Shown here: positions 7,393 through 52,309 of the stretch, piece by piece
Numbering within the stretch: position 1 is the first letter of the stretch
How the letters are laid out: every line of letters begins with the position of its first letter
DNA from: Malania oleifera
Taxonomy: Eukaryota > Streptophyta > Magnoliopsida > Santalales > Ximeniaceae
Direction: 5' to 3'
Length of the DNA stretch: 64,000 nucleotides
NCBI RefSeq assembly: GCF_029873635.1
Contig: NC_080422.1
Coordinates: 17,266,049 to 17,330,048, forward strand
Translations under genes and position numbers: made by a program
The notes under the pieces: generated by a model
The model's input: only the letters and a program-made list of their open reading frames with translations
What the model was told of the DNA's origin: nothing
Database searches by the model: none

Positions 7393-7407
7393 GATTAATA
7401 ATTTTAT

Positions 7408-7427
7408 CCTTTTTTTTTTTTTTTTGT
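7408..7427 (-). promoter_or_regulatory. A-rich 5' leader of gene A
   Basis: A near-homopolymeric T run on the plus strand gives an A-rich 5' leader about 16-35 bases upstream of the gene A start codon. It may affect translation, but only the composition is seen. Confidence 0.35.
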
Positions 7428-7498
7428 TTTTGGCTGGAGTGGCTAGCTTGGAGCGTGGTAGGGTTATGCTGGTGATGATACTTGTAATCTTAAGCTTC

Positions 7499-7505
7499 TT
7501 ATATA
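7499..7505 (-). promoter_or_regulatory. TATA box of gene A
   Basis: TATATAA on the minus strand within GGACTATATAAGAAGC, about 107 bases upstream of the ATG. This is the right distance for a plant core promoter with a leader of about 70-80 bases. Confidence 0.6.
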
Positions 7506-7619
7506 GTCCTCCGAATGACGCAATTGCATGCGTCTGGCAAACGGTAGAAAATTTTAAAAAGTGCAGGGTGATATACAGACTGATAGGGAGATATTAGATT
7601 CAGTATTTTTAATTTTAAT

Positions 7620-12884: not shown

Positions 12885-14774
12885 TGTTGACTCTACGAGT
12901 CCAATCTTGTTTTGATAATGAAAAGTCACTTAATATTCGATCTGTGCATTGAGTTTGTGAACATGACTTACACTAAGCATGCACGGAAAGTTAACAAATC
13001 TTGGCAAGATCCATGGAACTCAAAGAGTACGGGAATCAAGATGTAAGAGGCAAAGTTCAAGAATATCTTGGGAAAGGGTATTTAGAACTCATGTACTAAC
13101 ATTTTTATCTGATTTAATTTGAGGCTTATTATAACTTATAATGGTTTTAAGATTCATGCATTTCATGTACATCATTAGGAAACTCTCATGGACCTTGAAA
13201 TGTTTTCAAAATCATGAAAAATATATTTAATGAAAGATCCAAGAAAAGAAGCCAAGTAGATTTTTAGTTAGAAATAAAAATTTGAGAGAATGGGTAGTTC
13301 GGTCGCCTGAACTCAAATCTCAGTAGCCTGAAGAATTTCTTTGGTAGTCTGAAGATTAAGTTTAGTTGCCTGAAGAATTAAATGGAGAAGACAGAACCTG
13401 GCCGAGGCTCTTCGGTCGTCTGACCTTGGAACTTCAAGCGCCTGAAGTTGACACTTCAGGAGCCTAAAGTTGAGTTTGGTTGCCTGAACTCGCGGGAAAG
13501 CCTAAAAATCAGCTCTTTATTAAAAAGACACGAGAAGTATCTTATTGATCCAATGACTGAGATTAATTCTAAGGGTAATATAATATATATTATGAATATC
13601 TAAACCCTAGAACATAAGCTAAGGGACACAACAAGAAAGATGTACTTCTCATTGCAAGATTTGAACCCTAGAGCCAGTTTTCTGCACTTCAATCTTCTTC
13701 CATCTTCGTCTGGGAAAATCTCTACTGAAATCAAAAGGGAATTCATTCATCCAACTAAACTTTGATCCAGTATTAAGATTTGATCTGTCAAGTTATTATT
13801 TTTTCAAGAACCTCTCATCTCTTTACGTGTTTATCGCTAGAAAGAGGTTTTAATCTTGAGTGTGTATTCATATATAAAAATTGATTTTTAGGAAGATCAT
13901 GTTTTGAGAAAAACTTGTTAGCTTGGTTGATTGATTTGAAATTCAAGAAGTACATAAACACATATTCATATATATATTGTTCATTGGGTTTCTTATTGAA
14001 AAACCTACTTTGATTAAAATATTGGAACTTGAAGGAAAACTTTGTGATTTTTGATTGAGTTGTATTCAAGTCAAATTTTTGTTAAATAGCTCACTTCAAA
14101 TATACTTGAGCATCTTTACAAAGTGAATCAAGAACCCTAGTGGACTCCAAAGCATTTCAAATATATTTTCACTTGGGAGTTTTGATTAAATACAAATTTG
14201 TGTGTTGACACATATCATACATCAAACGATTGTATCGTTTTTCATACATTCTTGAGCTTCAAGTTATATCATATGTTAATGTACTAGGAAATTGAATTGT
14301 ACTCACAAGCTTTTGTTAGAAGCATTGTTTTGAGTGTTATTTTTAGATTTCATTGTAAACATGGTTCGGGTTGTGAACCGGGTGTAAGGAGGAAGCTGTA
14401 CCTCTTGTGAGCAGCGGATAAGGAGGGAGCTGTACCTTTTGTAAGCAACGGTTTGTAAGGGAAGCTCCATCCCACTTTAAGGAGCAGGGTTTTTAGTGAA
14501 TCCTTGAGTGGTTGCTCAAGGCGAGGACATAGGCCAAGTCGGCTGAACCTCGTAAAATCACGTTTGTCTTCTCTCTTCCTTTTACTTTTTATTTTCCGCG
14601 TTATATTTAAATTGAGTATATTGCATGCATAGATAGGATTGTCACACTCACACATAATTGAGCAACTAGAGGTAGTTGGTAAACTTATAAGAAGTGTGTA
14701 AAAGAAAATTAAGTGAATTATTTTTTTTTAATATCCAATTCACCCCCCCTCTTGGGATTACACCTTAATCAACA
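12885..14774 (+). repeat. Copia-1 5' LTR
   Basis: Starts TGTTGACTCTACGAGTC and ends GGGATTACACCTTAATCAACA. It has a short-palindrome array at 13298-13490, a TATA-like TAATATATATTATG near 13581, and the conserved block CAAGGCGAGGACATAGGC at 14516-14533. Confidence 0.9.
13298..13490 (+). repeat. Palindrome array in Copia-1 LTR (TTCGGTCGCCTGAA type)
   Basis: About eight degenerate copies of an imperfect palindrome, TTCGGTCGCCTGAA / ACTTCAGGAGCCTGAAGT, spaced 15-50 bases apart. The array ends about 95 bases before a TATA-like sequence. The 3' LTR carries the same array at 20515-20706. Confidence 0.7.
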
Positions 14775-14777
14775 TTT

Positions 14778-20084: not shown

Positions 20085-20100
20085 TAAAAAAGGGAGAGAT
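20085..20100 (+). other. Copia-1 polypurine tract
   Basis: AAAAAAGGGAGAGAT directly abuts the TG of the 3' LTR at 20101. This is the expected place for plus-strand DNA priming. Confidence 0.75.
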
Positions 20101-21988
20101 TGTTGACTCTACGAGTCTAATCTTGTTTTGATAATGACAAATTACTTGATATTTGATCTGTGCATTGAGTTTGTGAATATGACTTACACTAAGCATGCAC
20201 GGAAAGTTAACAAATCTTGGCAAGATCCATGGAACTCAAAGAGTACGGGAATCAAGATGCAAGAGGCAAAGTTCAAGAATATCTTGGGAAAGGGCATTTA
20301 GAACTCATGCATTAACATTTTCATATGATTTAATTTGAGGCTCATTATAACTTAGAATGGTTTTAGGATTCATGCATTTCATGTACATCATTAGGAAACT
20401 CTTATGGAACTTGAAATGTTTTCAAAATCATGAAAAATATATTTTATGAAAGATCCAAGAAAAGAAGCAAAGTAGATTTTTAGTTAGAAATAAAAATTTG
20501 AGAGAATGGGTAGTTCGGTCGCCTGAACTCAAACCTCAGTAGCCTAAAGAATTTTTTCGGTTGCCTGAAGGTTAAGTTCAGTCGCCTAAAGAATTAAATG
20601 GAGAAGAAAGAACCTGGCCGAGGCTCTTCGGTCACCTGACCTTGGAACCTCAGGCGCCTGAAGTTGACACTTCAGGAGCCTGAAGTCAAGTTTGGTTGCC
20701 TGAACTCACGGGAAAGCCTAAAAATCAGCTCTTTATTAAAAAGACACGCGAAGTATCTTATTGATCCAACGACTGAGATTAATTCTAAGGGTAATATAAT
20801 ATATATTATGAATATCTAAACCCTAGAACATAAGCTAAGGGACACAACAAGAAAGATATACTTCTCATTGCAAGATTTGAACCCTAGAGCCGGTTTTCTG
20901 CACTTCAATCTTCTTCCATCTTCGTTTGAAAAAATCTCTACTAAAATCAAAAGGGCATTCATTCATCAAACTAAACTTTGATCCGGTATTAAGGTTTGAT
21001 CTGTCAAGTTATTATTTTTTCAAGAACCTCTCATCTCTTTACGTGTTTATCGTTAGAAAGAAGTTTTGATCTTGAGTGTGTATTCACATATAAAAACTGA
21101 TTTTCAGGAAGATCATGTTTTGAGAAAAACTTGTTAGCTTGGTTGATTGATTTGAAATTCAAGAAGTACATAAACACATATTCATATATATTGTTCATTG
21201 GGTTTCTTATTGAAAAACCTACTTTGATTAAAATATTGGAACTTGAAGGAAAACTTTGTGATTTTTGATTGAGTTGTATTCAAGTCAAATTTTTGTTAAA
21301 TAGCTCACTTCAAATATACTTGAGCATCTTTACAAAGTGAATCAAGAACCCTAGTGGACTCCAAAGCATTCCAAATATATTTTCACTTGGGAGTTTTGAT
21401 TAAATACAAATTTGTGTGTTGACACATATCATACATCAAACGATTGTATCGTTTTTCATACATTCTTGAGTTTCAAGTTATATCATATGTTAATGCACTA
21501 GAAAATTGAATTGTACTACCAAGATTTTGTTAAAAGCATTGTTTTGAGTGTTATTTTTAGATTTCATTGTAAACACTGTTCGGGTTGTGAACCGGGTGTG
21601 AGGAGGAAACTGTACCTCTTGTGAGCAGTGGATAAGGAGGGAGCTGTACCTCTTGTAAGCAGCGGTTTGTAAGGGAAGCTTCGTACCACTTTAAAGAGCA
21701 GAGTTTTTAGTGAATCATTGAGTGGTTGCTCAAGGCGAGGACGTGGGCCAAGTCGGCTGAACCTCATAAAATCGCGTTTGTCTTTTCTCTTCCTTTTACT
21801 TTTTATTTTTCACATTATATTTAAATTGAGTATATTGCATGCATAGATAGGATTGCCACACTCACACATAATTGAGCAACTAGAAGTAGTTGGTAAACTT
21901 ATAAGAAGTGTGTAAAATAAAATTAAGTGAATTATTATTTTTTAATATCCAATTCACCCCCCTTCTTGGGATTACACCTTAATCAATA
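20101..21988 (+). repeat. Copia-1 3' LTR
   Basis: Colinear with 12885-14774 from TGTTGACTCTACGAGTC to TTAATCAATA (the last bases are CAATA instead of CAACA). It includes the palindrome array 20515-20706, a TATA-like sequence near 20798 and the conserved block at 21731-21749. Confidence 0.9.
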
Positions 21989-25781: not shown

Positions 25782-27041
25782 TTAAGCAGCGCAATAGGCA
25801 TTGATAGCTTTGACTGTTTTATCGGTAGCCCTGCCCTCATCAGAGTAGTAGAAAGCAAGGAACCGAAGATGATCAAATGGCTTAAACAGTAATGGGTGCT
25901 CCTCATCAACAAGCTCTGCTGGTATTTCTATCATCTTCCGAAAGAACGAAAACAGCGCAAGGCTGTATCTTGTTGTGCTCCCCTTCATTACCACTCGATG
26001 CTTCGGAGAATGTATTCTCCCATTGCTCCATGCCTGTTTAATTATGCCAACCAAAATAAACCCAGTCATTGTTTAAAGTGTGACAATGCCATTCTCAAAC
26101 TTTTAAGATGTCGATCCAATCGAATAGGGGTTAAATCTAGGCTACATAGGAAACTTTAAATATCAAATTGTGACGATTTAAATTTCATGGAGTACTTGTA
26201 AGTGTAATCAATTTACAGTGAAAATAACATGAAGCCAGCGTTGACTAACCATGGCTGCATCTCCGGCAATGACGATAAATGACGAAGGGGATAGATCAAA
26301 AGAGATCCACTCTCCATCCCTTATTTGCAACTCCAAACCATTGATTTCATTTTGATGAAGCACAGTCAAGAAGCTCTTATCCGTGTGAGTGACAAAACCA
26401 TCACTGGTCTCATTTGTTTGAGGCACTCTGTATTTCATGAGCCTAAGAAGATACGACGTAGACCCAATGTAAGACTCACAGTACTTCCCCACACCATAGC
26501 TGTCAAAAACCATTCTACTTGCCATTTGTTCCATCTCCGCCAGCAGCTTTGAGAATGAATACACACTTTCACTAACCAAAACAACACAACAAAAAAATGG
26601 ATAACTAAGCTTAGGCCAATTTCCTATTTTTGAAGTTCTTGAAGAGAAGGGATGGCAAAAAGAATACCAGAACTGATCATTTCCTGCTGGCCACATGAGA
26701 TTTGTGAAGCTCTGAGTGCCTTGGAGAGTCGCAGCGTTGTCGATGCCCAGGCTTTCGTAGAGAGGGAAAAGGGGAATTCGCCCAACATAGCCATGGAAAG
26801 GCTTGTGGTGAGAATTCTGAGTTTTGGTTTCTAAAGGGAGATCAAACAGCACTTGCAATGAATGGAAGAGCCCATTGTGCTGTTCAAGGGAGAGGCTACT
26901 GTGCGATATGATGAAGCAACCGTACTTTTCGAGTGCGTCGCGGACGAGGTTGCAGGCTGGGAGCCAAGACTCTGTGCCAGGCTTTGGATTTTCGCCGGAT
27001 AAATCAAGGACGGGGACCTTTGGTGGTGTTTGGAAAACCAT
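25782..27041 (-). CDS. AOP1-like 2-oxoglutarate/Fe(II)-dependent dioxygenase (gene B), three exons
   Basis: Minus-strand exons are 27041-26668, 26571-26250 and 26033-25782, with GT-AG introns of 96 and 216 bases and a joined frame of 315 residues. The first intron is in frame with both flanking exons, so an unspliced reading is also open. The rule that decides it is the match to gene A: both first introns split the Cys codon of the FCE word. DIOX_N words: PVLDLS, EKYGCF and HGYVG. Iron ligands: H187-T-D189 and H244 (SPKHRV). 2-oxoglutarate binding: R254-Y-S256. Family words also include YESLGI, MWPAGN and ELVDEEHPLLFKPFDH. It is closer to the AOP1 consensus than gene A at several places (HRV instead of HQV; PFHGYVG). 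The protein is intact and presumably cytosolic. Substrate unknown. Confidence 0.9.
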
Positions 27042-27084
27042 GTTTTCTGTTTTCCCTAGTCTATCTGTGGCTTGCCTCGCTAGG

Positions 27085-27092
27085 TTTTAAAA
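27085..27092 (-). promoter_or_regulatory. Possible TATA-like element of gene B
   Basis: TTTTAAAA, about 44 bases upstream of the start codon on the minus strand. It would imply a very short leader, so the real promoter may lie further upstream. Confidence 0.25.
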
Positions 27093-28139: not shown

Positions 28140-28624
28140 GTCGCGGGGTGCGTGTTTAATGTGTAGGAGTTTCGTGATCGCAGAGCCAATTTCATTGTAA
28201 TTTCCCCCCGTATGATACCAGTCCCCTCTCTCTTCTCCTTCGTCCCTTTCTCTCCTTCTCTCCCCGTTGCCCTGATCTCTCTCCCTTTCTCTTTCTCTTT
28301 CAATTTCTTGGCCATTTCTTGACCAAATTGCTCTCAAAAGTAGTTGATTTGTAACGTGAGCAAACATATTCCATTTTTGAATGAAAAAGCCAAAGTGAGC
28401 ATCAAACAAAACATGTCTTAAGACTCTAACATCAAAAAGGTATAATACAACAGAATTAAAATTGACAAACAAATAATGGCCTCTATCATTATCAGGTGCC
28501 CTTGGTTCGGGAATAAGCAGAGATATATAAATGAAGAGTTCTTTTGTAGAAACCTAAACCCGAAAAAATAAAGGAAATAAATAAGAAAAGAAGAGGGGAA
28601 AAATAAAAAGGGGCAAATAGCAGG

Positions 28625-28815
28625 ATTCGTTGACAAAGCCCCTGATTTTGTTGATGAAGGTTCTTCTGTGGTTCGTCGATGAAGTTCAGAGCTTCGTTGA
28701 CGAAGAAATCTCAAGCGACAGGAAAATATCAAATTTAAGGTTCGTTGATGAAACCCTCCTTTGTCCACAAACGGTCTTCTGTGATTCATCGATGAAGTCG
28801 CTGATTCATCGACAA
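28625..28815 (+). repeat. Palindrome array in family T element ii (TTCGTCGATGAA type)
   Basis: Copies begin near 28625, 28647, 28672, 28693, 28741, 28787 and 28805 (TTCGTTGACAAA, TTCGTCGATGAA, TTCGTTGACGAA, TTCATCGATGAA and similar). TATAAAT follows about 20 bases after the last copy. Confidence 0.75.
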
Positions 28816-28890
28816 GGGTGATCGGGTCAATGACTTATAAATGGATTTTTGGGTTTCTTATTCATTAAGAAACTTATTTTTCTTACACAC

Positions 28891-31186
28891 TGTTGACCTT
28901 ATAGGTTACGCCCTGATTTTGATAATGATAAATACTCTTGTATTTAATAAATATCTAGTTCATGTGCAGGTTCAAATTAGCATATTGTTAATGGCACATG
29001 AAAGCTCAAAGCTTGAAGAAAAACTCATGCTCTTAATTGTAATAATTTTTTTTAGTGAAATTTTTCTGTAATAGTAATTAAGGTATTCGGTTTGTAATAA
29101 GCACACACATCACATGCATGGTTTATTTTGTAAGCTCAAACCAAATACAAACAAAAAATAACCATAGAAAGACCTTAGGGTATTATTCCCTTCGGTCGAC
29201 CGACACTGGACTTTTTCGATGTCTTCAAATTGGACCCCAAGTGCCCCTAGGACACTCACACTTTCACATATATTTGTTAGGCACTTGAATAGGGCTTGTT
29301 TGCTTCAATACGGGACCGAAATGCACACACGATGCACTTTCGGTTGACCAGCCAAGCCAGTTCATTTTGGCCTAGTCGACCGAAACACCCTGGGTCAAAA
29401 GTTTGACCATCGGTTGACCGAACCAGGTAGTTCAAAAGGCCCTGGTCGACCGAAACCCCCTGGGGTCAAAATTTTGACCACCTAGTTGACCGAACTAGGT
29501 AGTTCAAAAGGCGCTGGTCGACCGAAACTCCCTGGGGTCAAAAGTTTGACCACCTGATCGACCGAATCAGGTAGTTCAAAAGGCCCTGATCGACCGAAAC
29601 CCCCTGGACTCAAAAGTTTGACCATCTGGTCGACTGACCACTTTTGTACTACAACTACCTGGTCGACCAGAGGGTTCTCGGGAGAATTCCCAGTGGTCTA
29701 GTTGACCGAACTAGGAAGTTCAAAATGCCCTGGTCGACCGAAACTCGAAAAATTGGGAAATCGCCCTCTCTTGGTCGACCGTGTCCTTAGTTCAATATTT
29801 TCTGGTCGACCGAACCATTTAAGACTTGGTCGACTGAAACATTTTTGGTCGATCGGACCTCTTGGGTTGTCATCATTTTTACCGCGGGTTAAATATTTTT
29901 AAACAGGGTTAAATTGATTTAAATGTCATTAATCTTTTCTAACATTCCTTAATAGGTCCCCAACGGTCAAAAACTTTGGTATGTCTATATATACTCTTTC
30001 ATTTGGTGGATTAAGCATCGATTAGCAAAAAGATTAAGAAAATCTCTCTCAAGAAAAAATACTTTCTTTTGATTCCCATTTGCTCATACTCTTCCAAATA
30101 CACTCTAGCTTACATTCAATACCCGTAAAATCATTTGTAAGTATTCTTGAGTGCTTAGATAGGAAGGTTTACTCTCTCTTGGTTGTGAGATTGATATAAT
30201 TTTATTGAGAGCTAAACCAAAAGGATTCTTAGGGTACTTAGCCAATAAGTTCATCCTAAGAAGACTTTACTAGGTCTTCTGAGATTGTATATTTGTTGCA
30301 ATATCTTAAGAAGCCCATTTTTGCTTTTGGTTGCGAAATCTTTTCAAAATCATTTACAAATATCTATTGCTCTTTATTTTGAAAACCATTTGAGGAGATA
30401 TTTGTATTTGAGGTGAAACATCTTTGTTGTAATATTTATTCACTCAAATATTTTTGCTGAAAACAAAGATCCTATATATTTTGCAATCCAAGCATATACA
30501 TACTTCCATGATTGAGATATTCTATTGATTGATATTCTTGAGGTTTATCTGATATTCTGTGTGAACACATTTGATTGAAATACCTTGAGATACACAGATT
30601 GCTTGTTTGGCACTCTCACGTACTTACTACACTGATAGAAAACATAGTTGAGAGTTGAAATATTTAGACCACACAGAGCTTACATTTTAAATCATCTGTG
30701 GTGTTTGTGTTTGTGCGCATTTGTGGTACAAATCTGCTTTACATGAAAGCACCCATATATTGTACCGTTTGATTGTATATCTGAGAGATTCCAAGCGTGG
30801 CCTGAGGGGGCTGTAATCCAGCCCGGTAAGGATTGGTATAAAAGTTGAGGTCAGCCCTGTGGTAATTTGACCTGGTTTGTATAGGTGATGCTCCACCCGT
30901 TTAAGTGAGCAAGTTATTGTGATAATCTTTGTGCTGGTTAGCCAAGGCGGGGACGTAGGCAGTTGGCCGAACCTCGATAACATATCTGCATGTCACCCTT
31001 CATTTACTGCTTTTTGGTGCTTGTGCGATTAATTAAACTGCTTCATTTAATTTCTGATATATTTACATTATTTGCATTAGATTGACCATAAGATTGTGAA
31101 CATACTGCTGTTAGGAGGAATAACTAAGGGTTAAATTCTAAAAATACCAATTCACCCCCCCTATTGGGATCACGGTAAAGCTAACA
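28891..31186 (+). mobile_element. Nested solo Copia-type LTR (family 3)
   Basis: Begins TGTTGACCTTATAGG and ends GGGATCACGGTAAAGCTAACA. It is bordered by CACAC on both sides, although the right copy lies in a CA microsatellite and so is not decisive. It has a TATATATA at 29986 and the conserved block GCCAAGGCGGGGACGTAGGC at 30941-30960. There is no internal domain, so it is a solo LTR. The same family is present in reverse at 61987 to the window end and, more distantly, at 52310-54417. Confidence 0.8.
29191..29857 (+). repeat. Palindrome array GGTCGACCGAA in family 3 LTR
   Basis: About 17 copies of GGTCGACCGAA and variants (GGTTGACCGAAC, GATCGACCGAAT, GGTCGACTGA), many alternating with the phrases CCCTGG and AAAGTTTGACC. 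The array ends about 130 bases before the TATA box at 29986. Confidence 0.85.
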
Positions 31187-31204
31187 CACACACACACACA
31201 CACA

Positions 31205-31242
<38 letters not shown>
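31184..31242. repeat. (CA)n and (CT)n microsatellites
   Basis: A CA run followed by a CT run, downstream of the TATA box of family T element ii. Element iii has a CT run at the matching place (42306-42367). Confidence 0.9.
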
Positions 31243-31244
<2 letters not shown>

Positions 31245-32897
31245 AGCCGGCGCCCTACTCTCTCTTCCTTTGGTTTTTTAGCCGTTCATCACCCGAATCG
31301 ACGATCGAAGGTTACCACAAGGATGAGGGGAAAATTCCCTGCAAGTCTAGCAGAGTAGATTCTTGAATGAGGTTTTTCCAGGCACCACTCCAAAAACAAT
31401 GTAAGCAAGTATTATGAAGTTTTTATGTCATTTTGAAGTATAGGGGGGCCTAGGGAGTGTTTAATGAAAAGTACTATGTGGGTTGGGATGATTAATTTGA
31501 GGAAAATGTATTTCAGCGTTTTGAGCTTTGAACGCCATAGGGCATGGATTAAGGGTGTCAGAAGGCTATTCTGTAAGATAGGCAAGGGGATTAAGTTAAG
31601 TTAGAAGTTTTATTAAAGTTGTACCTAATAAAATGCTATATATGCATATTTATGTTTTGAGTTGTTATTTCAAAACCGAAACGTTCAAAATGGTCTTTGC
31701 AAACCTAGGATATATGATATGATATTTCCAGTGAATATGAACGGTGGGAAGTACAGTTGACATTATAAATAAGATATAATGTATACGAAAAATTGTGTGG
31801 CAGGTCAATATTATTTCGAGGGTTATCGTGTAACCGAATTTATGAATGCTTGTGAAATACTAAAAATGCTTGTGAAATACTAAAATGTTTGTGAAATAAT
31901 GGAACTATTTGTGAAACGCAGGAAGTTTTATATGATGGACATAAGGGTTGAGTTTTATATGTATGATGGCTGCGAGGGCCAAGTTTTATATGAGGGCCTT
32001 GAGGGCGTAATATAACATGACAGATTTTTATACAAAATGAGTTTGAAATACAGTTTTTGTTACTTAAATTGCATGATATGCTTTAGGAACCTTGGGAACC
32101 ATGTGCGGCCACACTATTCGTGAGGAGGTGTAGGGTGGTCTCAGCCGATTAGCCTCAGTAGAGGGGTACCTTCCCACGAAGACCGAACTTTTAGGATGTG
32201 GTGGGGCAATCGGATTCCCGCAAGCAAGTTACGGATGCCTGCGTAGTCATAGTAGATGCAAACGTATGTTTTGACTTAGTCTGGGTTGATATGCCCTAGG
32301 GCTAAGTCCAGCATTTGGGCCACACAACCCGTACCATGGGGGAAGTAATGGTGTTTAGTCCAAGGGAGTGTCTTTTATGCATATATGTAGATTTATGTGA
32401 ATGGTACTATTTATTTACTAAACTGTTTATACCATGGAAATGAGATGAGTATTTTCTACAGTCTAAAGTGAGTACAATGTATAAATGTTATTTTTAGTTA
32501 AATGATGGATGAATGTTTTTCTGTAAACACTTTATGCATGCTAACCACACATTGATGTTAACTTAATCTTCCCTATTAAGAGGTGTCTTGCCCCAATTTA
32601 CAAACTATCTTTTCAGGACCATCTTGAGGTCAGTAGAACTATGGTTGTAATTAAGTTGGGTTTGAAGCCTGAGTATATGACATGGATATATAAACTGAGT
32701 TAGTTTTGGTATTGTACTATGGTTTGTACTATGAGTTCAGAGAGATGTAATGTAAAGTAGTAGCATAGAACTCTGGTAATGAAGAATGGAGACTATTTTA
32801 TTTATTTCCACTGCAATTATATAATGATTATGGTATAAGGTACACAAATGTCACTAAAGTAGCACCTCGGGCCTACGTGGTGGGTCGGGGTGTTACA

Positions 32898-33527: not shown

Positions 33528-35928
33528 TGTTGACTCTATGAGTCTAGTCCTATTTTAATAATGACAAATCACTTGGTATTTGATATGTGCATTGAGATTG
33601 TGAACAAGAACAATATTTAGCATGCACGGAAGGTTAGAAATTCATGAAATCCATGAGAATTAAAGGATATACAACTTGACACAATCCATGGAACTAAAAG
33701 AGTAGAAGAACGAAGATGCAATCGTCAAGTTCAAGATTGTCTTGGGAATGGGTATTTAGAACTGAATGTATTTATATATTTTATATGATTTAATTTGAAA
33801 CTCAAAATATATCCTAGACTGACCTTAGGACCCACGCATCTCATGAAAATCTTTTTGGGATTATTCATTAACTTAGAGTCTCTATTTAAAACCCCGAAAA
33901 ATGTTTTATGAAGAAGCAAAGCGAGAAAGCAAAAATGGATTTTGAAAACAAAATAAAAACACTAAAGTTTGACTACTCAGACAATTGAGGATTACCCTCA
34001 AAAGTCTAAAGATGCAACTTCAGACGACTTAAGTTTTACTTCAGAAGTCTGAAAAATTTCCTCAGAAGACTGAAGAATTAGTTCAGTTATCTGAATAATT
34101 AATTTTGAAACACAGAACAACGAGAACACCTTAAGACGTTTGAACATTCAGTTCAGTCGTTTGATCTAGGACTTCAAAAGACTGAACCTATAGTTCAGTC
34201 ATCTGACCCTTTATCGAGACTATGATTTTTAGGGCTTTAAGGAACTTCAGTCTTCTGAACCCGAGACCTCACTTGTCTGAACTTGCAAAAACTTCAAAAA
34301 TCTAGTTTTTAGTGAGAGAACATGCGAGTCGTTTAACTAATCAAGTTGATCCAAAGGTAAAGACTTAACCTAGGACCGAGAACACTTATAAAATCAACCT
34401 CTAGACTCTAGTGCCTCACTTTTTACATATGATTGAGGAGTTTTGAACATTCTTGCACATCTCTTGAGAAGCTTTGAATACTATTGCTAAGAATCATAGC
34501 CTGCACTGCAAAGAACACACTTTTACTTGGGCATTCGCATATTTTTAGATCTAAGCAAATACATACGCAACTTCTGGTAAATGTAGGTGTGATCTTGAGG
34601 TTTAGAAAAATAGTTTATTGAGCTTTCAATTTTTTATTAATCGATCATCTTCTCCATTATTCGTTTATTGAAAAATCTTTTTGGGAGTAAGAAACTTATT
34701 TGCCTATAGTTATTTATTTGAAAAATCTTTTGGAAATAGCTTTCTAAAGTTTGAATCCTTGTGATATTCAAAGTTGTATTTTTTGTCTAAGGGATCTATC
34801 TTATTGGTGCAAAAAGTATTTGAAAAATATTACTTAAATCTTTAAAATATTCAAAGTCATATTTTTATTTAAAGATTTAATCGTACGAGTTATTTGATAG
34901 CAAGAACTTAGATCGACATAATACTCAAAGATTTTCTCATCTCACAAACTTATTCTTGAATATTCATTTTGAGAGATCGGAATTATTTGATTACAAATAA
35001 TAAGAGCCTATAAATACATATCTTTGAAGAATATAATTTTTGAAGCATAGTATTTAAATCTTTGCAATATTCAAGGTCGTATATTTATTCAAAGATTCAA
35101 AATGAAAAATTATTGATAACAAGAATATAAATCTGTGCATTATCAAAAAATTATTTTTTGAAAGTATCTTGTTCTCTAATCTTGCTTAAAGTATTCTAAA
35201 ATTGAACCTTATTTTTTCTCCAAAGCATTTATTTAAAAAATCATATTTGGGAGATATTGATTTAAAGGATTGATTTGTAAAACATATGATTCATATAACG
35301 ATATCATCATTACATACATACTGAGCTTCATATTTTATCTTATGAGTACATGTTAGGAATTTTTATTGTACTCATTAGCTTCTTCAGAACCATCGGAGTG
35401 TTCAAAATTTTCACCAATCTATTGTATTGATGGTTCAGGTTGTGAACCAGGAAGGAGGAAGTTGTACCTCGTGTAAGCAGCAGAGTAGGAGGAAGTTGTG
35501 CCTCTTGTAAGTAGCGAGTTTGTAACGAGAAGCTTCATCCCAGTTAAAGAAGGGAATTAGTGCAATGCTTGGGGGTATTGCCCAAGGTGAGGACGTAGGC
35601 AGGGTTTGGCCGAACCTTGTTAAAAATTTGGTGTCTGCGCTTTATCTCTTTATCTCTGTTTATATTTCTGCACTTATATTCATATTATATCTGCTGTGCA
35701 TGTGTTAAATATCGATATATATGAATATCTAAATTACGTGAGAATAATTGGGTAATATATAATTAATTGAGATATCCATGGATTAAATCAAGTGAGTTGT
35801 ATAATACTAAAATCAGTGTGTATCCAAATTTATACTTGTATGTCTGGGTTTTCAATTAAGGATTAAACTACCAAAATATTTTTAAATACCCAATTCACCC
35901 TCCTCTTGGGATTGCACCTAAATTAACA
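33528..35928 (+). repeat. Copia-2 5' LTR
   Basis: TGTTGACTCTATGAGTC ... CACCTAAATTAACA. It has a palindrome array at 33976-34285 with TTCAGTCGTCTGAA-type words, then ACTTATAAAATC near 34385 as a likely TATA box. The conserved block CCCAAGGTGAGGACGTAGGC is at 35581-35600. The first 120 bases are clearly related to the Copia-1 LTR. Confidence 0.85.
33976..34285 (+). repeat. Palindrome array in Copia-2 LTR (TTCAGTCGTCTGAA type)
   Basis: About ten degenerate copies, such as TTCAGACGACTTAAG, TTCAGAAGTCTGAA, TTCAGTCGTTTGA and TTCAGTCATCTGA. The array ends about 100 bases before the TATA-like element. The 3' LTR has the same array at 40404-40712 in more eroded form. Confidence 0.7.
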
Positions 35929-39958: not shown

Positions 39959-42090
39959 TGTTGACTCTATGAGTCTAATCCTATTTTGATAATGACAAAT
40001 CACTTGGTATTTGATCTTTGCATTGAGATTGTGAACAAGAACAATATTTAGCATGCACGAAAGGTTAGAAAGTCATGGAAGTCAAAAGGATTAAAGGATA
40101 TACAACTTGACACAATCCATGGAACTAAAAGAGTAGAAGAATGAAGATGCAAGCATCAAGTTCAAGATTGTTTTGGAAATGAGCATTTATAACTGAATGT
40201 ATTTACATATTTTATATGATTTAATTCAAAACTCAAAATATATGCTAGACTGACCTTAAGACTCATGCATCTCATGAAAATCTTTTATAGGTTATTTATT
40301 GACTTAGAGACTCTATTTAAAACCCCAGAAAATATTTTATGAAGAAGCAAAGCAAGAAAGAAAAAATGGTTTTTGAAAACAAAATAAAAAAACTAAAGTT
40401 GGACTACTAAACGATTAAGGATTACCCTCATAAGTCTGAAGATGCAACTTTAGACGACTGAAGTCTTACTTCAGGCGTTTAAAGAATTTCCTTAAAAGAC
40501 TGATGAATTAGTTTAGTCATCTGAAGAATTAATTTTGAAACACTGAACAGGCAGAATACCTTCAGACATCTGAACCTTCAGTTTAGTAGTCTAATGTAAG
40601 ACTTCGGAAGACTGAACCCAGAGTTTAGTCATCTGACCCTGTATTGAGACTATGACTTTCAGAGCTTTAAGGAACTGCAGTTGTTTGAACACGTGACCTC
40701 AGTCGTCTAAACTTGCAGAAACTTTAAAAATCTGGTTTTTAGCGAGAGAACACGCAAGTCATTCAATTATTCAAGTTGATCCAATGGTCAAGACTTAACC
40801 TAGGGCCAAGAAAACTTATAAAATCAACCCTAAACCCTAGTGCCTAACTTTTTACATATGATTGAGAAGCTTTGAACATTCTTGCACATCTCTCAAGAAT
40901 CTTTGAATACTATTGCTAAGAATCATTTCTTGCACTGCAAAGAACACACTTTTATTTGGGCATTCGCATCTTCAAGATTTGAGCAAATACACACGCAACT
41001 TCTATTAAATCTAGGTTTGATCTTGAGATTTGGAAAAAGCTTTCAATTTTTTATTAATTGATCATCTTCTCCGTTATTTTTTTTATTGAAATATCTTTTT
41101 GGGAGTAAGAAACTTATTTTCCCATAGTTATTTATTTGAAAAATCTTTTGGGAATACCATTCTAAAGTTTGAATCCTTATGATATTCAAAGCTGTATTTT
41201 TATTCAAAGAGATCTATCTTATTGGTACAAAAAGTATTTGAAAAATATTATAATCTTTGAAATATTCAAAGTCATATTTTTATTCAAAAATTTAGTCATA
41301 CAAGTTATTTGATAGCAAGAACTTAGATTGTATATTATTCAAAGATTTTCTCATCTCACAAACTTACTCTTGAATATTCATTTTGAGAGATTGGATTTAT
41401 TTGATTGCGAATACTAAGAGCCTCTAAATACATATCCTTGAAGGATATTATTTTTGAAACATAGTGTTTAAATCTTTGCAATATTCAAGGTTGTATATTT
41501 ATTCAAAGATTCAACTTGAAAAATTATTGATAGCAAGAATATAGATCCGCACATTATCAAAGATTATTTTTTGAAAGGATCATGTTCTCTAATCTTGCTT
41601 AAAGTATTCTGAAATTGAACCTTATTTTTTTCTCCAAAGCTTATTATTTATCAAATCATATTTGGGAGATATTGATTTAAAGAATTGATTTGTAAAGTAT
41701 ATCATTCATATAATGATATCATCGTTACATACATACTGAGCTTTAATTTTTATCATATGAGTATGTGTTAGGACTTTTTATTGTACTCATTAGCTTGTTT
41801 AGAAGCATCTGAGTGTTCAAAAATTTCACCGATCTATTGTATTTACAGTTCGGGTTTTGAACCGGGAAGGAGGAAGCTGTGCGTCGTGTAAGCAGCGGAG
41901 TGGGAGGAAGCTATGCCTTTTGTAAGCAACGGAGTAAGAGGAAATTGTGCCTCTTTTAAGTAGCGGGTTTGTAATGGGAAGCTCTCTCTGAGTTAAAGGA
42001 GCATATTTGTAGTGACTCGAAGAATAATAGCATTTTAATAATAATAAGAGGGCGAGAAATAGAAATAGAAATAGAAAGAGGTCGTAGACT

Positions 42091-42258
42091 TCGTCGACGA
42101 GTGGATAAGGAAATTCGTCGACAAATAGAGGGATTCGTCGATGAGAAAATACCGAGCGAGGTTTTTGGCTGCTCTGAATTTCATCGACGAATACAGGGTT
42201 TCATCGACAAATTTAATGAAGGACTCGTCGATGAGGTGACGTGTCTTGTTGACGAATC
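42091..42258 (+). repeat. Palindrome array in family T element iii (TTCGTCGACGAA type)
   Basis: Copies at about 42091 (TCGTCGACGA), 42114, 42134, 42181, 42201, 42223 and 42245, as TTCGTCGACAAA, TTCGTCGATGAG, TTCATCGACGAA and TTGTTGACGAA. TATAAATAG follows seven bases after the last one. Confidence 0.8.
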
Positions 42259-42305
42259 TGGCCCTATAAATAGCTAAAAACCAAATTTTTATCCATTTTT
42301 CAACG

Positions 42306-42320
42306 CCTCTCTCTCTCTTT

Positions 42321-42367
<47 letters not shown>
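42306..42367. repeat. (CT)n microsatellite in family T LTR
   Basis: A CT run about 40 bases after the TATA box, hence probably in the transcribed leader. It is matched in position by the run in element ii. Confidence 0.9.
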
Positions 42368-42369
<2 letters not shown>

Positions 42370-44334
42370 GTCACTCTTTCCCTTCTTTATTCGATTTTGG
42401 CCCCGCCAGTCTTTAAATCGAAGATTTGAGACTACCACGACACTCCCGGTGAAGTTCTCTACAAGACTACTGGAGCTGATTGTGGGGAAAACAAAGTTGG
42501 ATTTTATCCCAAATTCAGGGTAAGGTCTTTTAGTCCCTTTTTGGCCTTATGACAATTATAGAAATTGATATAGGTAGAAAAATAATGATATTTTGTTCTG
42601 GCATATGTTGGTTTCAGGGTGTTGTGTAGGAGACCCTGCGGGTGTTAAGCTAGTATTCCATAGAGGCTTTCCAATAGCAGGTAAGGGAAATATGCTATGC
42701 TAGGTATTTTTAAAAATATTATATAGTTTATTAAATGATGAAAATTATGTATTACAGTATCGTGTAGCTTTTGAATATGAATATAGTACGAATATATGTT
42801 TTATGATATTTCAGTGTTATGATTTTACGATATTTCGGTACCATGATTTTATGGATTTTAGTACCATGATTATACAAATTCTAGTACCATGATTATACGA
42901 ATCTCAGTATTATGATTATGCAGTTTCAGTGTTATGATTATACGATTCTTAGCAGTACGACGTATGAATTACAGTACAGTTTATGCAGCATCATGGTTAT
43001 TTCAGTATTTCAGAATCATGGTAAATCAGATAGATGTATATATATAAAAATATATTATATGATATCAGACCCTGTTGGACTATGCAGCTACAGAGCACGG
43101 TACCGTTGCTACAGATATTATATTACTTTATGAGTGCAATCACCTATTTAGATAATATGTGGTAAGGTTGATCACCTAGGCCCTAAAGAGGATAGGCTCC
43201 CCATCCATATATGGGTTGAGGTGGGCAGATCGACCGATGGAGTATAGTGATTTATTCCTAGTTGGCTAGCTAGGGTAAATCCTGCCTATGGGCCACGCAA
43301 CCCTATCATGAGGGGGTAAGTCATGACACACAGATAGCAACAGGGAACAATTTCAGTTATTATTACATATGTATAGATTTGCAGAAACAGGGAGCATACT
43401 TACTTATACTAGAAGTATTTTGAATAATAAACTCCAATACTGTCATGTTAAGCAATAGGGATAAGGGTGGTGGATTTTATCACTTATACTTTGTTTATAT
43501 ATTCAGTTATATATGCTTATTTAAAAATAAATTTCATGATATAGTAGCTCATTTGCCACACACTAGTAATATCATATTTCTTCTTACTAAGCGTTGGCTC
43601 ATCCCAGTGTTGAATCATTTTTCAGGTGATCCAGATAGGCGAGCATACCAGGCTCACAGATAGAGGGGCTTCAGTAGTGCCCTGTTAGAGAGTGAGTATA
43701 TTTTGGGAGTGTTATGTATAACCTTAGCTAGTTGAGGGTATTTTGGGGAACAAATATATGTACTTATTTTGGAAAACATGTAGTACTCTGGTATTGTTTG
43801 GTGATGTATGGTATACAGTTTCATATGGTTATGTTTATTTGATTTTGCTTCTTGCTGCTTAGGTTAATGATTGGGTTTATTCCCAGAATGGTATTAGAGC
43901 ATGTTATATGTAGATTATAAAAAAAAAAAAACCCCAGTTTATTAAGCAGGTCATTACAATATTAGTGCTATCCTTGGGGGTTTTGCCCAAGGTGAGGATG
44001 TAGGCCGGGTTTGGCCTAACCTCATTACAAATTTGGTGTTTGCACTCTATCTATCTTTCTCTCTTTATATTTTCGTAGTTATATTCATATTATATCTATT
44101 GTGCATGTGTTAAATATTGATATGTATGAAGATCTAAATTACGTGCGAATAATTGGGTAATACTTAATTAATTGAGATATCCACAGATTAAATCAAGTGA
44201 GCTGTATAATACTGAAATCAGTATGTATCCAAATTTGTACTTGTATGTTTGGGTTTTCAATTAAGGATTGAAATACCAAAATATTTTTAAATACCCAATT
44301 CACCCCCCCTCTTAAGATTACACTTAAATTAACA

Positions 44335-44634: not shown

Positions 44635-46200
44635 TTATGAGTCCCTAAAATGCATGATTTTAGACATTCATTTATCTTTGTTTATCCTCATTTTACTATG
44701 TATTTGCCCAGAGTTATTATTGTTCAGAGTTATGCAAGGTTTGTTTGCCTTTTCAGGAAAAACAGGTTAAAACCATGGAGTTAGGTATTATGAGAAGCCA
44801 GAGAGGATTTGGAGGACTTAAAGTCCAAATTAGATGCTCAGCCAAGTTCTTGAAGCTTCAGATCATCAATGGACAAGAAAATGATGCTTGACTATGTGGC
44901 ATGGCCAGCAACACACAAGGGCGACGTAGTTTCCACTGCAGACTCCAAGGTTCAGAATGAGATCAAAATGTTGCAAGGTTCAACTAAGTCCTCGACCAAG
45001 TGACTCTCCAGGGTGACCACATCGAGATACTGAGATGGAATTGAGAGTAGAATTACTAAGAATCTCGACAAAGTGTTCAACCAAGAGACATTAAGGGGCG
45101 ATTATGTCGAGTTCCTAAGATTTCCTAAAGATCGAGATCCTACAAGTTTCGACCATCAGCTTGACCAATAAGACCTTGAGGCACAACATAGTCAAAGACA
45201 TTGAAGATTCGAATTCCTAATTTCCAACAAGTCTCAACCAGGGCGCACACAAGAATGACATAGGGGCAACTTGGTCAACATGGACAATCTTATATGCCAG
45301 ATTTGCGGCAAAATTTCCTAACTTGTAAAACAAACTTTGTAAACCCTAGAGCCTATAATTATTCACTGCGAACATGAGCTCTGGGTTCTCTTTGGCCTCC
45401 TTCGATTAGTGGCAAACTTAAGATATCATTGAGAGCCACTTTAGAATAGGAGTACAGTAGATTTCAATTCTTATTTCGATTTGTGCATGAAGTGTCTGAC
45501 AGACTGTGACAATTGGCGGCACTCTTGTACTTCTGTGTATATTACACGATCTTCTTTTGTACTTCCTAGCGTTAGTGACAAACATGATGAATGCAAAGAG
45601 ATGATCTTTTTACATGCTTTCTCTTTAGTGCTTTCATTTATTGTTTGGATTGTGATGATGTTTAGTGGCAAGATTAGCATCTCTATTGCTTCAGTCAGGT
45701 ACACGTATTAGGCATAGTCTCCCAAAGAGGTTCTCGTGATCATTTATGATAGAGTATACCCCAATTACCGACGGTGCTCTAGATAGCTGGCGCACCCTTG
45801 CTACTCTATGGCATTGAATGGCTCCTTGGATTGTTTATCCGGTTTCCAGTTAGTTTAGTAAGGTAAACTCACTGAACTTAGATTACATAAAACAACATCC
45901 AAAACTATATTCATGTCTAAACATTGCTTTGTAGGAGCAGGGTTAATTTAGATTTATTTGCTTTCTTTTTTCACACTTTCTTGTAGATTGTTAGACATCA
46001 CCCATTGAAAAATACGACGTTTTTACTTCTCTTTTATACAAGGCTACATGAAACTAATTTGGAAGAGGTATCACAACTGCGCTTTAAGTCTCTGTGGATC
46101 GACACCTGACTTATCCACTTTTTACTGAACTTGGGATGAGTTAGGTTATATAAATTTTATCTTTGTTAGTTAAGGACCCAAGCCTTGGTGAGCCTACCAA
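44635..46200 (+). repeat. Gypsy-1 5' LTR
   Basis: The stretch ATGAGTCCCTAAAATGCATG ... GATCAAAATGTTGCAAGG (44635-44980) matches 51975-52309 with scattered changes. The 3' limit is set by the PBS at 46201. The exact 5' base is uncertain by a few bases because the two copies differ there. Confidence 0.65.
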
Positions 46201-46218
46201 AATTTGGCGCCGTTGATG
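46201..46218 (+). other. Gypsy-1 primer-binding site
   Basis: TTTGGCGCCGTTGATGGG resembles the TGGCGCCGTTGCCGGGG site common after 5' LTRs of plant Athila/Tat-type Gypsy elements. Confidence 0.65.
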
Positions 46219-46427
46219 GGTACTTGACTACGGTTATGAACCAACTTCTAAGTTAGGGTATTATTGCCTTGTTCTTTTAATTTGCTCTGCTTTTATTTTC
46301 ACTTTCTTTATTGTTTTTATTTTTATTTTTAGTTTTTGTTTACTGTTGTTGAAGTTTGAATCTTTGTGCTTAAAAGTATGCATATTTGGTGTGCATTCTT
46401 TGGAACCCAAGATAATTCTCATAGATC

Positions 46428-47300
46428 ATGAGATTTAAAAATCTCGTAGATCCCTTACGTAACTTATCTCTAATCCAAAGAAGGCTGTGTCGTCTGAATC
46501 TGAAAGTCGTGGTTGAAAATAACCCATCGGTTCCCAGTAAACAAATCCCAAAGCCCCAAGCTCCTTGCCTACTTGTGGTAGGAGAGCAACCTCTTTGGTC
46601 TCATAGGGACTACTTTGTACCTAATGCATACACCTTGTCGTCTTGCATTCGGTTCTCGAATATCCAGGCTGTGCAGTTCGAGATTAAAACTTCAATCATC
46701 TCGATGCTGCCCAACTTTAATAAGAACCTTATTGAAAATCCATATCAGCATCTAGATGAGTTCTTGGAGATTTGTTCCACCATCTGTATACAAAATTTTA
46801 GTGATGACGCACTTCGTCTTTGGCCTTTTCTGTTCTCTCTAAAAGATAAGGCCAAATATTGGTTGACTTCCTTAGAACCGAATTCGGTGACCATCTGGGC
46901 CACCACGCAACATGAATTTTTGAAAAAGTACTTCCCAATTAGGAAGACTAACCAGCTGCGAAGGGCAATCACAAGTCTCATAAAAATGGATAGGGAACTC
47001 TTCATTGAGACCTGAGAGCGTTTTAGGGACCTACTTCATAAATGGCCACATCTTCAAGTCCCCAAGCGCAATTAGTTCAAACTTTTTATGAAGGGTTAGC
47101 TGAGATAGATAGGTCCATTGTTGATGCTTCATGGGGAGGTACTTTCCTCACAATGCACAAGAATGAGGCCTGACTTCTCTTTGAAAATTTTGCTGAAATC
47201 TCTCAATAGCACATGGTTGCCACTCATAGACTACCTAATCCATCAACCTTTAAATCTAAGGGAGTTTAGGAGTTGGCGAGAAGCCAGGACTTAGTCCCTA
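46428..47300 (+). pseudogene. Gypsy-1 gag (Retrotrans_gag), broken
   Basis: The frame 46428-47015 contains PNAYTLSSCIRFSNIQA, NPYQHLDEFLEICST, then the conserved LKDKAKYWLTSLEPNSV, EFLKKYFPIRKTNQLRR. The usual ETFYEAWERFKDLL follows as LFIET, a TGA stop at 47013-47015, then ERFRDLLHKWPH. Further stops follow. This is the capsid region of Ty3/Gypsy gag. The product is not full length now. Confidence 0.8.
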
Positions 47301-48339
47301 CCTTGCATGCCATATCAAAAAAATTATACCAGCACTTGTCCATAGGACCGCAGACAATGGCATGTGCAGAGGTTTGTGCAATTTGCTCTGACCCCTCCCA
47401 TACATGTTATAATCGCCCTCCATGCGAATTCCCAACTTGAGTTTGTGCAAGGGGAAGTAAAGGCCACCCACAATTGGTATGATAAGTCGTCCAATGACCC
47501 TTATTCAAATACCTATAACCCCGGGTGGAAACAACATCCCAACTTCTCCTAGAGGCCGCAAGCTCTGGGTTTCCAATCCTAAAGACCTCCACAAGTCCCT
47601 AGTCCTTTGCCTCCATGCCCATACCAAAAATTCCAAAATCATTCTGATTCAGCCCCCATATCTTCAACCGTTCAGCAATTGCCTCCACCTAAATATGAAA
47701 CATTTCAAAAGACAATGTTGAGAACCCTTAAGAACATTGAGGCTGATTGCCAAGTGGATTAACAACTCCTTCACTCTCACTCCCAATCCATCGTGAAGTT
47801 AGAAGGCACCTTGGGGCAACTAGCTACTACCTTGAGTCGGAGAGACAAGGGCAAGTTGCCAAGTCAGCCCATAGTGAATCGTAAAGGATAATATAGGGAG
47901 GAATGTGAATCGGATGATGGTCCCTCATCATAACCTAAGCAAGCCCAGGCAGTAACCACCCTCCAAAGTGATAGGATTATAGATAAACGAGGCAAGGAGC
48001 AACCGAGTAAGGGAGAGAATAAGGATGAAAAAAGGGTAGTGCCCAATGATAATTCATGCACCCAATCCTTCTCTAGTTGGGTACACAAATCCTTGATTCC
48101 CACACGTGCAACTAGAAGGACCAACCCTCACTTCACCCCCATAGAGCTTTTCATAGCCCCTCAGTTGCATATCCTATAGCCCCTTTTGCACCTTCTATAT
48201 TCAGGAAAGAGGCCTCAACCGAGTCAATTTGGGACATGTTTAAATGAGTGAGAATTGAAAAGCCTCTCCTAGAAGGCATTAAGCAATCACCTACATTTAC
48301 AAAGTTTCTTAAGGACTTATCAACGTAGAAGCAAGAGTC

Positions 48340-48780
48340 AAGGGTGCATATGGATGGTTTAGTCAAGCAAACAGAGCATATGAGCTCCATGATACTAGGG
48401 CACCTTGTTCCTAAACTAAAAGACCCCAGTTCCCCCACTATTTCGTGTGTAATTGGCGGTTACACCATTGATAGGGCTCTTCTAGATTTAGGGGCGAGCG
48501 TGAACATCCTTTCATACTTAGCCTATCAACAACTTGACCTTGGAAAAATGAAGCCCACTTCGATAATAGTGAGTCTTGATGATTGATCTCTTAAGCAACA
48601 CCAGGGTGTGGTAGAAAATATGGTGGTAAAGGTGGGAGACTTCCATTATCCTATCAATTTCATCATTTTAGATATGGAGTCTTCCACCAATCCGATCTCT
48701 GTCCTTCTAAGACGGACATTTCTAGCCACCGTCAATGCTTGCATTCGATGTAGGATGGGGATTATGGACATTTCATAGGG
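48340..48780 (+). pseudogene. Gypsy-1 aspartic protease, partial
   Basis: The frame 48344-48586 reads LKDPSSPTISCVIGGYTIDR, ALLDLGASVNILSYLAYQQL and LGKMKPT. The DLGAS motif is the plant Gypsy version of the D-T/S-G active site. After a TGA stop at 48584, homology continues (VVENMVVKVGDFHYPINFIILDM) towards an RTFLATVNACI word, then decays. The normal next domain, RT, is not seen. Confidence 0.8.
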
Positions 48781-48959
48781 CCATAGGAGACTCATGCTGA
48801 ACACATTTACCTGCCCCCAACAACATGCACTTAAAACTATACAAGTTGTGGACGGAGACCTAATTGATATAATTACTACGGAAGAGGCTCCCCCACTTTT
48901 ATGGAGGGACCCATTGGGTAAGGTACTTCCACTTGAATACTCTGCATGATTGAACTAAG

Positions 48960-51900: not shown

Positions 51901-51970
51901 AATGTAGGTAGGATATAGTAGTTTTCTTAGATTTTGATTTACTAAAGGACTAGCAAAGTGTAAGTTGGGG
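48960..51970 (+). other. Gypsy-1 interior without recognised domain
   Basis: Two open frames (49278-49658 and 49685-49900) have no recognisable domain. The phrase GAGGTTCAATGTTGGGGGTAGG near 50261 is of the kind found after pol in Athila/Tat elements. The rest has no ORF. Confidence 0.45.
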
Positions 51971-51974
51971 GTTG

Positions 51975-52309
51975 TGATGAATCCCTAAAATGCATGATTT
52001 TAGACCATTATTTATCTTTGTTTATCCTCATTTTACTATGTATTTACCCAACGTTATTATTGTTCAGAGTTATGCAAGGTTTGTTTGTCTTTTCAGTAAA
52101 AACAAGTTAAAACCATGGAGTTAAATATTACGAGAAGCCAAGGAGGATTTAGACGACTCAAAACTCAAATAAGATGCTCAACCAAGCTCTTGAAGCTTCA
52201 AATCATCAAGGGATAAGAAGATGATGCTCGACCTTGTGGCGCGACCAGAAACACATAAGGGCAACTTAGTCTTTCACCACAGACTCCAAGGTCAGACTAA
52301 GATCAAAAT
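51975..52309 (+). repeat. Gypsy-1 3' LTR, truncated by Copia-3 insertion
   Basis: About 335 bases matching the start of the 5' LTR. It stops after GATCAAAAT at the Copia-3 LTR boundary. AAAAT (52305-52309) is the presumed target site. Confidence 0.75.

Follow-up and report, generated by a model that had tools for sequence, protein, structure and literature searches.

Arrays of repeated CpG-centred palindromic boxes stand shortly upstream of a TATA element in both Copia and Ty3/Gypsy LTRs of a 64-kb Malania oleifera window (the whole stretch of DNA analysed here, C6:17266049-17330048 of the 1.49-Gb genome). We regard them as probable U3 cis-regulatory box arrays, made of dyads suited to dimeric host DNA-binding proteins. 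As judged from sequence, the arrays in the Copia LTRs are Sirevirus RM boxes, and that of a Ty3/Gypsy LTR family, termed T, is RM-like and of the same design. The Gypsy-LTR array and a test indicating selection on its boxes appear to be what is new, the Sirevirus half being a rediscovery.

Many LTR retrotransposons are nested within the window. The features concerned are listed below, with plus values giving the distance in bp past the last box of an array.

12885-14775, plus strand: Copia-1 5' LTR (Sirevirus), from LTR comparison, terminal hallmarks and domain matches
about 20100-21988: Copia-1 3' LTR, 95% identical to the 5' LTR
13299-13487, plus strand: Copia-1 5' array, 7 boxes of the TCAGGCGCCTGA type, TATATATA at +97
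20515-20703, plus strand: Copia-1 3' array, 8 boxes, spacings 21, 21, 21, 50, 22, 22, 20
starts at 33528 and 39959: Copia-2 LTRs, the second broken by the solo LTR T2
33977-34280, plus strand: Copia-2 5' array, 12 boxes of the TCAGACGTCTGA type, mostly at 21-bp pitch, TATAAAA at +107
40428-40710, plus strand: Copia-2 3' array, 12 boxes
ends at about 61987 and 52307, minus strand: Copia-3 LTRs
53658-54051, minus strand: Copia-3 3' LTR array, 12 boxes of the TCGGTCGACCGA type, TATA at +130
63283-63907, minus strand: Copia-3 5' LTR array, 17 boxes, TATA at +130
28545-32897, plus strand: T1, a solo Ty3/Gypsy LTR (TGTAG...GTTACA) with the 5-bp target site duplication TCTTT on both sides
28626-28816, plus strand: T1 array, 8 boxes of the TTCGTCGACGAA type, spacings 21, 25, 21, 48, 19, 25, 20
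28836-28842, plus strand: T1 TATA element TTATAAATGG, 20 bp past the array
28891-31186, plus strand: family 3, a solo Sirevirus LTR with target site duplication CACAC
29192-29856, plus strand: family 3 array, 16 boxes of the GGTCGACCGA type, partly in a 72-bp higher-order unit
29984-29995, plus strand: family 3 TATA element GTCTATATATAC, 130 bp past the array
42008-43958, plus strand: T2, a solo Ty3/Gypsy LTR in the Copia-2 3' LTR, target site duplication ATATT
42090-42256, plus strand: T2 array, 7 boxes of the TTCGTCGACGAA type, spacings 24, 20, 46, 20, 24, 21, TATAAATAG at +9

The two solo LTRs T1 and family 3 are nested, family 3 lying in T1 just past the T1 TATA box, between that box and the T1 CT tract; to the right of the insert T1 is collinear with T2. 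Extra palindromes (GTCAAAAGTTTGAC, GAACCAGGTAGTTC) occur between the boxes of the family 3/Copia-3 arrays (29191-29857, 63282-63908), partly within the 72-bp unit. Elsewhere in the window, a Gypsy element with a PF03732 gag (44637-52309) shows no palindrome array in the first 401 bases of its LTR, and its second LTR copy ends at the start of the Copia-3 LTR. Two dioxygenase gene pieces, both on the minus strand, flank Copia-1 (6991-7593, with DIOX_N, and 26211-27086, with DIOX_N and 2OG-FeII_Oxy) and share about 70% DNA identity in parts, and about four tandem copies of a 188-bp repeat occupy 56846-57606 in the Copia-3 internal region. An Rfam search gave no match at gathering scores, the Copia reverse transcriptase had no relatives in the viral_contigs or genome_contigs collections, and two-box patterns found no match in viral_contigs.

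Because a previous sequence-only reading of this DNA had picked its palindromes by eye, we used an unsupervised search over all 4,096 perfect 12-bp palindromes, allowing at most 3 mismatches at non-overlapping sites, and compared the best palindrome of each array with 100 dinucleotide shuffles. All nine arrays exceeded every shuffle, having 6-15 sites where the shuffles reached maxima of only 3-5. No such excess was seen in any of eight control segments from other LTR parts, the Gypsy LTR at 44637 and non-LTR DNA; their values were reached by 5 to 94 of 100 shuffles, from an AT-rich motif in the family 3 U5 at the low end to the best palindrome of the Gypsy LTR (3 sites, 94 shuffles). The best palindrome was CG-centred in 9/9 arrays, and each family returned its own consensus. 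TTCGTCGACGAA came up independently in T1 and T2, which agree at about 66% over 157 bases past the array; family 3/Copia-3 gave TTGGTCGACCAA or TCGGTCGACCGA, Copia-1 gave TCAGGCGCCTGA and Copia-2 gave TCAGACGTCTGA. The palindrome excess, the CG-containing dyad core, the family-specific palindrome and the count of 7 to about 17 per array (7-17 boxes here), all claimed in the sequence-only reading, are thus borne out.

A blind scan that divided the window into 638 stretches, each of 200 bp, and used palindromes with at least 4 G+C led to the same places. At least six boxes were present in nine stretches, every one inside six of the reported arrays, while the Copia-1 5', family 3 and Copia-2 3' arrays peaked at five. 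Nineteen stretches held at least five boxes; 17 of them overlapped arrays and two lay elsewhere (36401 and 42801). A plain count of any palindrome was weaker, failing for the Copia-1 5' array, whose value 276 of 500 shuffles reached, and performing poorly for T2 (45/500) and the Copia-2 5' array (30/500). With the plain count weak and the unsupervised test strong, the significance rests on the repetition of a family-specific palindrome.

The first TATAWA past the last box lies at +20 in T1, +9 in T2, +97 in Copia-1, +107 in Copia-2 and +130 in three family 3/Copia-3 LTRs. TATAWA is present in 0.18 of random 130-bp window stretches, so the TATA link is modest from the window alone. Genome copies of one family vary little in this distance, in keeping with the positional link that had been proposed: among the matches listed, it is 97 bp in 24/30 Copia-1, 107 bp in 26/29 Copia-2, 130 bp in 16/20 family 3 and 20 bp in 23/27 T copies. 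The palindrome excess likewise extends beyond the window, with 28/30 Copia-1, 28/30 Copia-2, 20/20 family 3 and 27/27 T copies above every shuffle among the matches listed. In those copies the best palindrome was CG-centred in 30/30 Copia-1, 27/30 Copia-2, 20/20 family 3 and 26/27 T arrays, against 2/30, 0/30, 0/20 and 1/27 for the stretch past the array.

For Copia-1, Copia-2 and family 3 the queries lay outside the array, and the copies are 30, 30 and 20 of the best 40 each, scored out of 2067, 2051 and 4971 candidates, so that the sample consists of the closest matches. The 27 T copies were fetched with the array itself (best 40 scored of 569 candidates), which biases their box counts upward. 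Free of that bias are eight T2-type copies found with a query beyond the array (best 40 of 7776 candidates), of which seven carry at least five boxes among the matches listed; TATAWA stands at +9 in four of these eight listed copies, and none follows the last box within the fetched stretch in the other four. The copy sets include the window's own elements (L001, L009, L011 and L059). In one Copia-2 type LTR, L077, the U3 array contains an inserted T-like array with 8 boxes. Because a T-like LTR sits in the array, L077 was left out of the Copia-2 box and TATA counts; it was kept in the shuffle test (28/30).

Judged by their terminal hallmarks, Copia-1, -2, -3 and family 3 are Sireviruses. The polypurine tract (PPT), primer-binding site (PBS) and inverted-repeat hallmarks were read in Copia-1, -2 and -3, family 3 being a solo LTR. 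Exact copies of the PPT octamer AGGGGGAG lie upstream of the 3' LTR in Copia-1 (2), Copia-2 (4) and Copia-3 (3); the terminal octamer is changed with AT/TG kept in Copia-1 and Copia-2, and exact with AT/TG changed in Copia-3. The 5' LTR/PBS junction CA/ATTGG-TATCAGAGC is exact in Copia-3 and a few bases off in Copia-1 (TTTGGTATCAGACC) and Copia-2 (TTTGGTATCAAAGC). An inverted repeat at the PPT/3' LTR junction, read by eye in all three, has TTTGTCATnAT before and ATAATGACAA after the junction. The polyC-rich integrase signal near the LTR 3' end, CAATTCACCCCCCCTCTTGGGAT or variants (TCCCCCTCTTGGGATC in the Copia-3 3' LTR), was judged by eye against the written description in the excerpted text of PMC2829016. 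Retrotran_gag_2 and RVT_2 matches were obtained in Copia-1 and Copia-3, and no Copia domain in the three Copia-2 ORFs scanned.

The sequence-only reading had treated the array-bearing LTRs as distinct families and knew of no description of their design. Gypsy and Copia LTRs are indeed both present, but the families are not all independent: the Copia-1 and Copia-3 internal regions share 67-72% DNA identity, and Copia-1 and Copia-2 share one 127-bp piece at 74% plus matching LTR pieces. As the Copia families are related Sireviruses, their likeness can follow from common descent, which removes the need for convergence among them. Nor is the Copia half undescribed. Palindromic RM boxes, mostly in the upper half of Sirevirus LTRs and upstream of the TATA box, were published by Bousios et al. 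in 2010 (PMC2829016), which makes this half a known feature. According to the excerpted text of that report, they were found in 13 of 21 Sireviruses at 8 to 32 boxes per element, mostly form CpG islands, which the TATA box follows at a mean distance of 37 bp, and were compared with Tnt1 box I, no factor common to the boxes being found; the survey dealt with Ty1/copia only, and RM were absent from all non-Sirevirus Copia elements it covered. With RM in 13 of 21 Sireviruses only, the array design is not obligatory. The Copia-1 and Copia-2 boxes agree with RM in position, copy number and symmetry. More generally, a 2023 paper, as excerpted, describes cis-regulatory regions of transposable elements across families as often being arrays of sometimes palindromic repeats (PMC10760457).

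Family T is Ty3/Gypsy and no Sirevirus, since its two-LTR copies carry broken Gypsy coding pieces. L039, with two LTRs and broken frames, has gag at 3120, RVP_2 at 4001, RNase H at 5334, Integrase_H2C2 at 5916 and SH3_Tf2-1 at 6471, the domain order of Gypsy (gag PF03732, protease, RNase H, integrase last), although the polymerase domain of RT gave no match. L041, also with two LTRs, has RNase H and SH3_Tf2-1 pieces. In L040 a single domain was found, a Copia RT running on the opposite strand, which we ascribe to a nested insertion. SH3_Tf2-1 was found, and no Chromo match, in the T pieces scanned. L039 has LTRs of about 2.1 kb and a PBS-like TGGTATTAGAGC; the T termini are TGTAG...TTACA. That T copies bear arrays upholds the claim that the design occurs in Gypsy as well as Copia LTRs. 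In the literature searched, which included few subscription journals, we met no account of arrays of this kind in Gypsy LTRs of plants.

The T array usually comprises 8 CpG-centred boxes at 20-25 bp pitch, arranged as four, a 46-48 bp gap and four; TATAAA follows the end of the array at 20 bp in the T1 type and at 9 bp in the T2 type. It resembles RM in that its box is palindromic, in high copy, CpG-rich and shortly upstream of TATA. Among the matches listed, the layout of four, gap and four is found in 22/27 T, 3/8 T2-type, 16/30 Copia-1, 22/29 Copia-2 and 0/20 family 3 copies. The gap sequences of T are unlike those of Copia, and are alike within each group. In T (42146-42180; L001-L008) the gap holds AAATCCCGAGCGA / AAATACCGAGCGA and variants, alike in both subfamilies, and this sequence is possibly a second type of site.

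The two T subfamilies allow boxes to be compared with spacers. Box by box, T1-type and T2-type boxes are 0.76 identical, against 0.37 for spacers and 0.36 for shuffled spacers (20/27 T1-type and 5/9 T2-type copies in register, among the matches listed). Because boxes had been chosen by motif likeness, the comparison was repeated with a motif-blind alignment and boxes defined in T1 alone, giving 0.75 for boxes and 0.39 for spacers; boxes were the more alike in 109 of 110 pairs, the pairs being interdependent. With boxes about 75% alike in register and spacers at the shuffled level, the comparison indicates that the T boxes have probably been kept by selection. Inside a single subfamily the boxes have no advantage over the spacers (0.79 vs 0.82 and 0.84 vs 0.85), as expected of dead copies, which suggests that the constraint acted in active lineages. 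The contrast between Copia-1 and Copia-2 is small, at 0.66 for boxes, 0.60 for spacers and 43% for shuffled spacers.

These comparisons bear on the view that the arrays are neutral minisatellites without function, produced by slippage or unequal exchange. The arrays are tandem-like, several were reported by Tandem Repeats Finder, and divergence is greater in the array than in the remaining LTR in 27/27 Copia-1 and 15/15 Copia-2 usable comparisons (27/29 and 15/29 copies, the others being left out for length; among the matches listed, one reference copy being shared per family). But a neutral repeat predicts a joint fate of boxes and spacers, and the T subfamilies show otherwise; nor would unrelated families be expected all to reach a CG-centred dyad before TATA. 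We consider neutral origin very unlikely.

Somewhat better, though still improbable, is the proposal that the arrays are kept for RNA structure, as U3 hairpins at the 3' end of genomic RNA serving stability or packaging. All nine fold more stably than shuffles on both strands (z -1.1 to -10.6), with 17 of 18 strand tests at z -2 or lower; the lowest z of eight control tests was -2.65, the others lying between -0.94 and 1.07. Such folding, however, follows automatically from palindromes, and hairpins need neither a CG centre nor a fixed TATA distance. CpG decay in T boxes showed no preference for keeping pairs (112 wobble-compatible vs 98 incompatible changes, p 0.37), in what is a weak test as most copies are probably dead.

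A third alternative, by analogy with maize Sirevirus palindromes, would make the arrays primarily host silencing targets that nucleate small-RNA directed methylation. CHH methylation is the mark of small-RNA directed silencing in plants. Between paired LTRs, the array exceeded the rest of the LTR in the frequency of non-CpG C/G transitions for Copia-1 (13/83 vs 45/532, p 0.04), for Copia-2 (29/116 vs 84/491, p 0.06) and for both pooled (42/199 vs 129/1023, p 0.002). Among the genome copies in the matches listed, compared with one shared reference copy per family, CHH-context transitions were highest in the array for both families (Copia-1 0.146 vs 0.069-0.130; Copia-2 0.246 vs 0.148-0.221). 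Taken with the CHH mark, these raised rates hint, if modestly, at small-RNA targeting of the Copia-1 and Copia-2 arrays. The arrays are also CpG-denser than the rest of the window (19-95 vs 14 per kb), and T boxes show C-to-T/G-to-A at 297/1278 CpG bases against any change at 58/1278 other bases, a concentration that fits methylated copies. Maize Sirevirus palindromes, moreover, are reported as small-RNA hot spots in the excerpted texts of PMC10760457 and PMC5311732.

Set against this, transitions in the array did not exceed those in the rest of the LTR in the CG context (Copia-1 0.233 vs 0.243, Copia-2 0.220 vs 0.331) or the CHG context (0.159 vs 0.194 and 0.232 vs 0.272), in the same comparisons. 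Array-specific CpG methylation is therefore not supported, array CpG rates not being above those of the rest of the same LTRs. Of the suggestion that the arrays are silenced through their CG sites, one part stands, in that box CpGs decay like methylated cytosines; they do so no faster than other LTR CpGs. Silencing alone would also give the element no reason to keep boxes through spacer turnover. As the primary role of the arrays, silencing seems to us unlikely, if less so than the two preceding explanations.

The U3 regulatory reading therefore remains the one we prefer. U3 is the promoter-bearing part of the LTR, and binding sites for dimeric activators commonly occur as repeated dyads ahead of a TATA box. 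The appearance of a regulatory array, pointed out in the sequence-only reading, holds up: repeated CG-centred dyads lie upstream of TATA in Copia and Gypsy LTRs. We count in its favour that the same anatomy is published for Sireviruses in the excerpted account of PMC2829016. Counted against it are the unclear helical pitch in T, the lack of a common motif, the small box-spacer contrast of Copia-1/2 and the T2-type copies without TATAWA; RNA folding and the non-CpG changes fit the RNA readings. On the regulatory reading, dimeric host factors would bind the box dyads and drive transcription from the LTR promoter, and methylation of box CpGs would block that binding in silenced copies. As U3 is also transcribed at the RNA 3' end, its palindromes could, by analogy with the maize elements, fold there in genomic RNA and feed small-RNA silencing as a second effect.

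No single motif joins the families. Heat-shock elements and other known plant sites were rejected as the common box by inspection, their half-site spacing being a misfit. A W-box was rejected as the general box, as it fits family 3/Copia-3 alone: the three arrays of this type contain 26 of the 51 TTGACC in the window, and the centre has decayed to TG or CA in 53 of 291 boxes of this type among the matches listed. CpG decay turns GGTCGACC into GGTTGACC, which contains TTGACC, a WRKY W-box word. Helical phasing was likewise discarded as a general rule, being strong in Copia-1/2 (mean cosine at 10.5 bp of 0.81), moderate in family 3/Copia-3 (0.44) and unclear in T (0.18, with 0.11 by chance).

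A bolder reading, which we hold only tentatively and think doubtful, is that one regulatory grammar operates in plant LTR promoters of both superfamilies. It would consist of some eight CG-centred dyads, spaced by about two helical turns and split into two sets of four 46-50 bp apart, directly upstream of TATA; a methylation-sensitive dimeric host factor, or a small family of such factors, would read it, and unrelated elements would have converged on it or exchanged it between LTRs. LTR promoters drive much of plant genome transcription and expansion, and to our knowledge the host factors that read them are mostly unknown. Boxes that outlive their spacers, in a like design in two superfamilies, offer a short DNA probe for such a factor, and the proposed conflict between promoter function and silencing becomes testable through them.

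Among known systems, the closest are the Sirevirus RM boxes, which, as described in the excerpted text of PMC2829016, the Copia arrays resemble in palindromes, CpG richness, copy number and pre-TATA place. The grape RM CGGTCGACCG given there has the same core as the family 3/Copia-3 box. The boxes of Copia-1 (TCAGGCGCCTGA) and Copia-2 (TCAGACGTCTGA) are without the full CGG-CCG signature, as is Tnd-1 in that source. The T box TTCGTCGACGAA departs further, having no CGG-CCG core and a host LTR that is not a Sirevirus. The U3 boxes of Tnt1, to which the sequence-only reading likened the arrays, are also symmetric elements upstream of an LTR promoter but belong to another Copia lineage and have another sequence. 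In maize, a 2016 Sirevirus study (known through the excerpts of PMC10760457 and PMC5311732) described clustered palindromes that lie, as here, in the regulatory portion of the LTR and are predicted to form strong RNA structure; small-RNA data tie those maize clusters to silencing. The likeness between T and the Sireviruses may stem from convergence, from LTR segments exchanged long ago or from a factor common to both. For exchange there is a precedent in einkorn, where a Gypsy LTR motif (RLG_Quinta) is proposed by the authors to have come from a Copia LTR (RLC_Gisela); in the excerpted text of PMC11302176 that segment is tied to nucleosome positioning and is no palindrome array. With this Copia-to-Gypsy motif on record, exchange is as possible as convergence for T.
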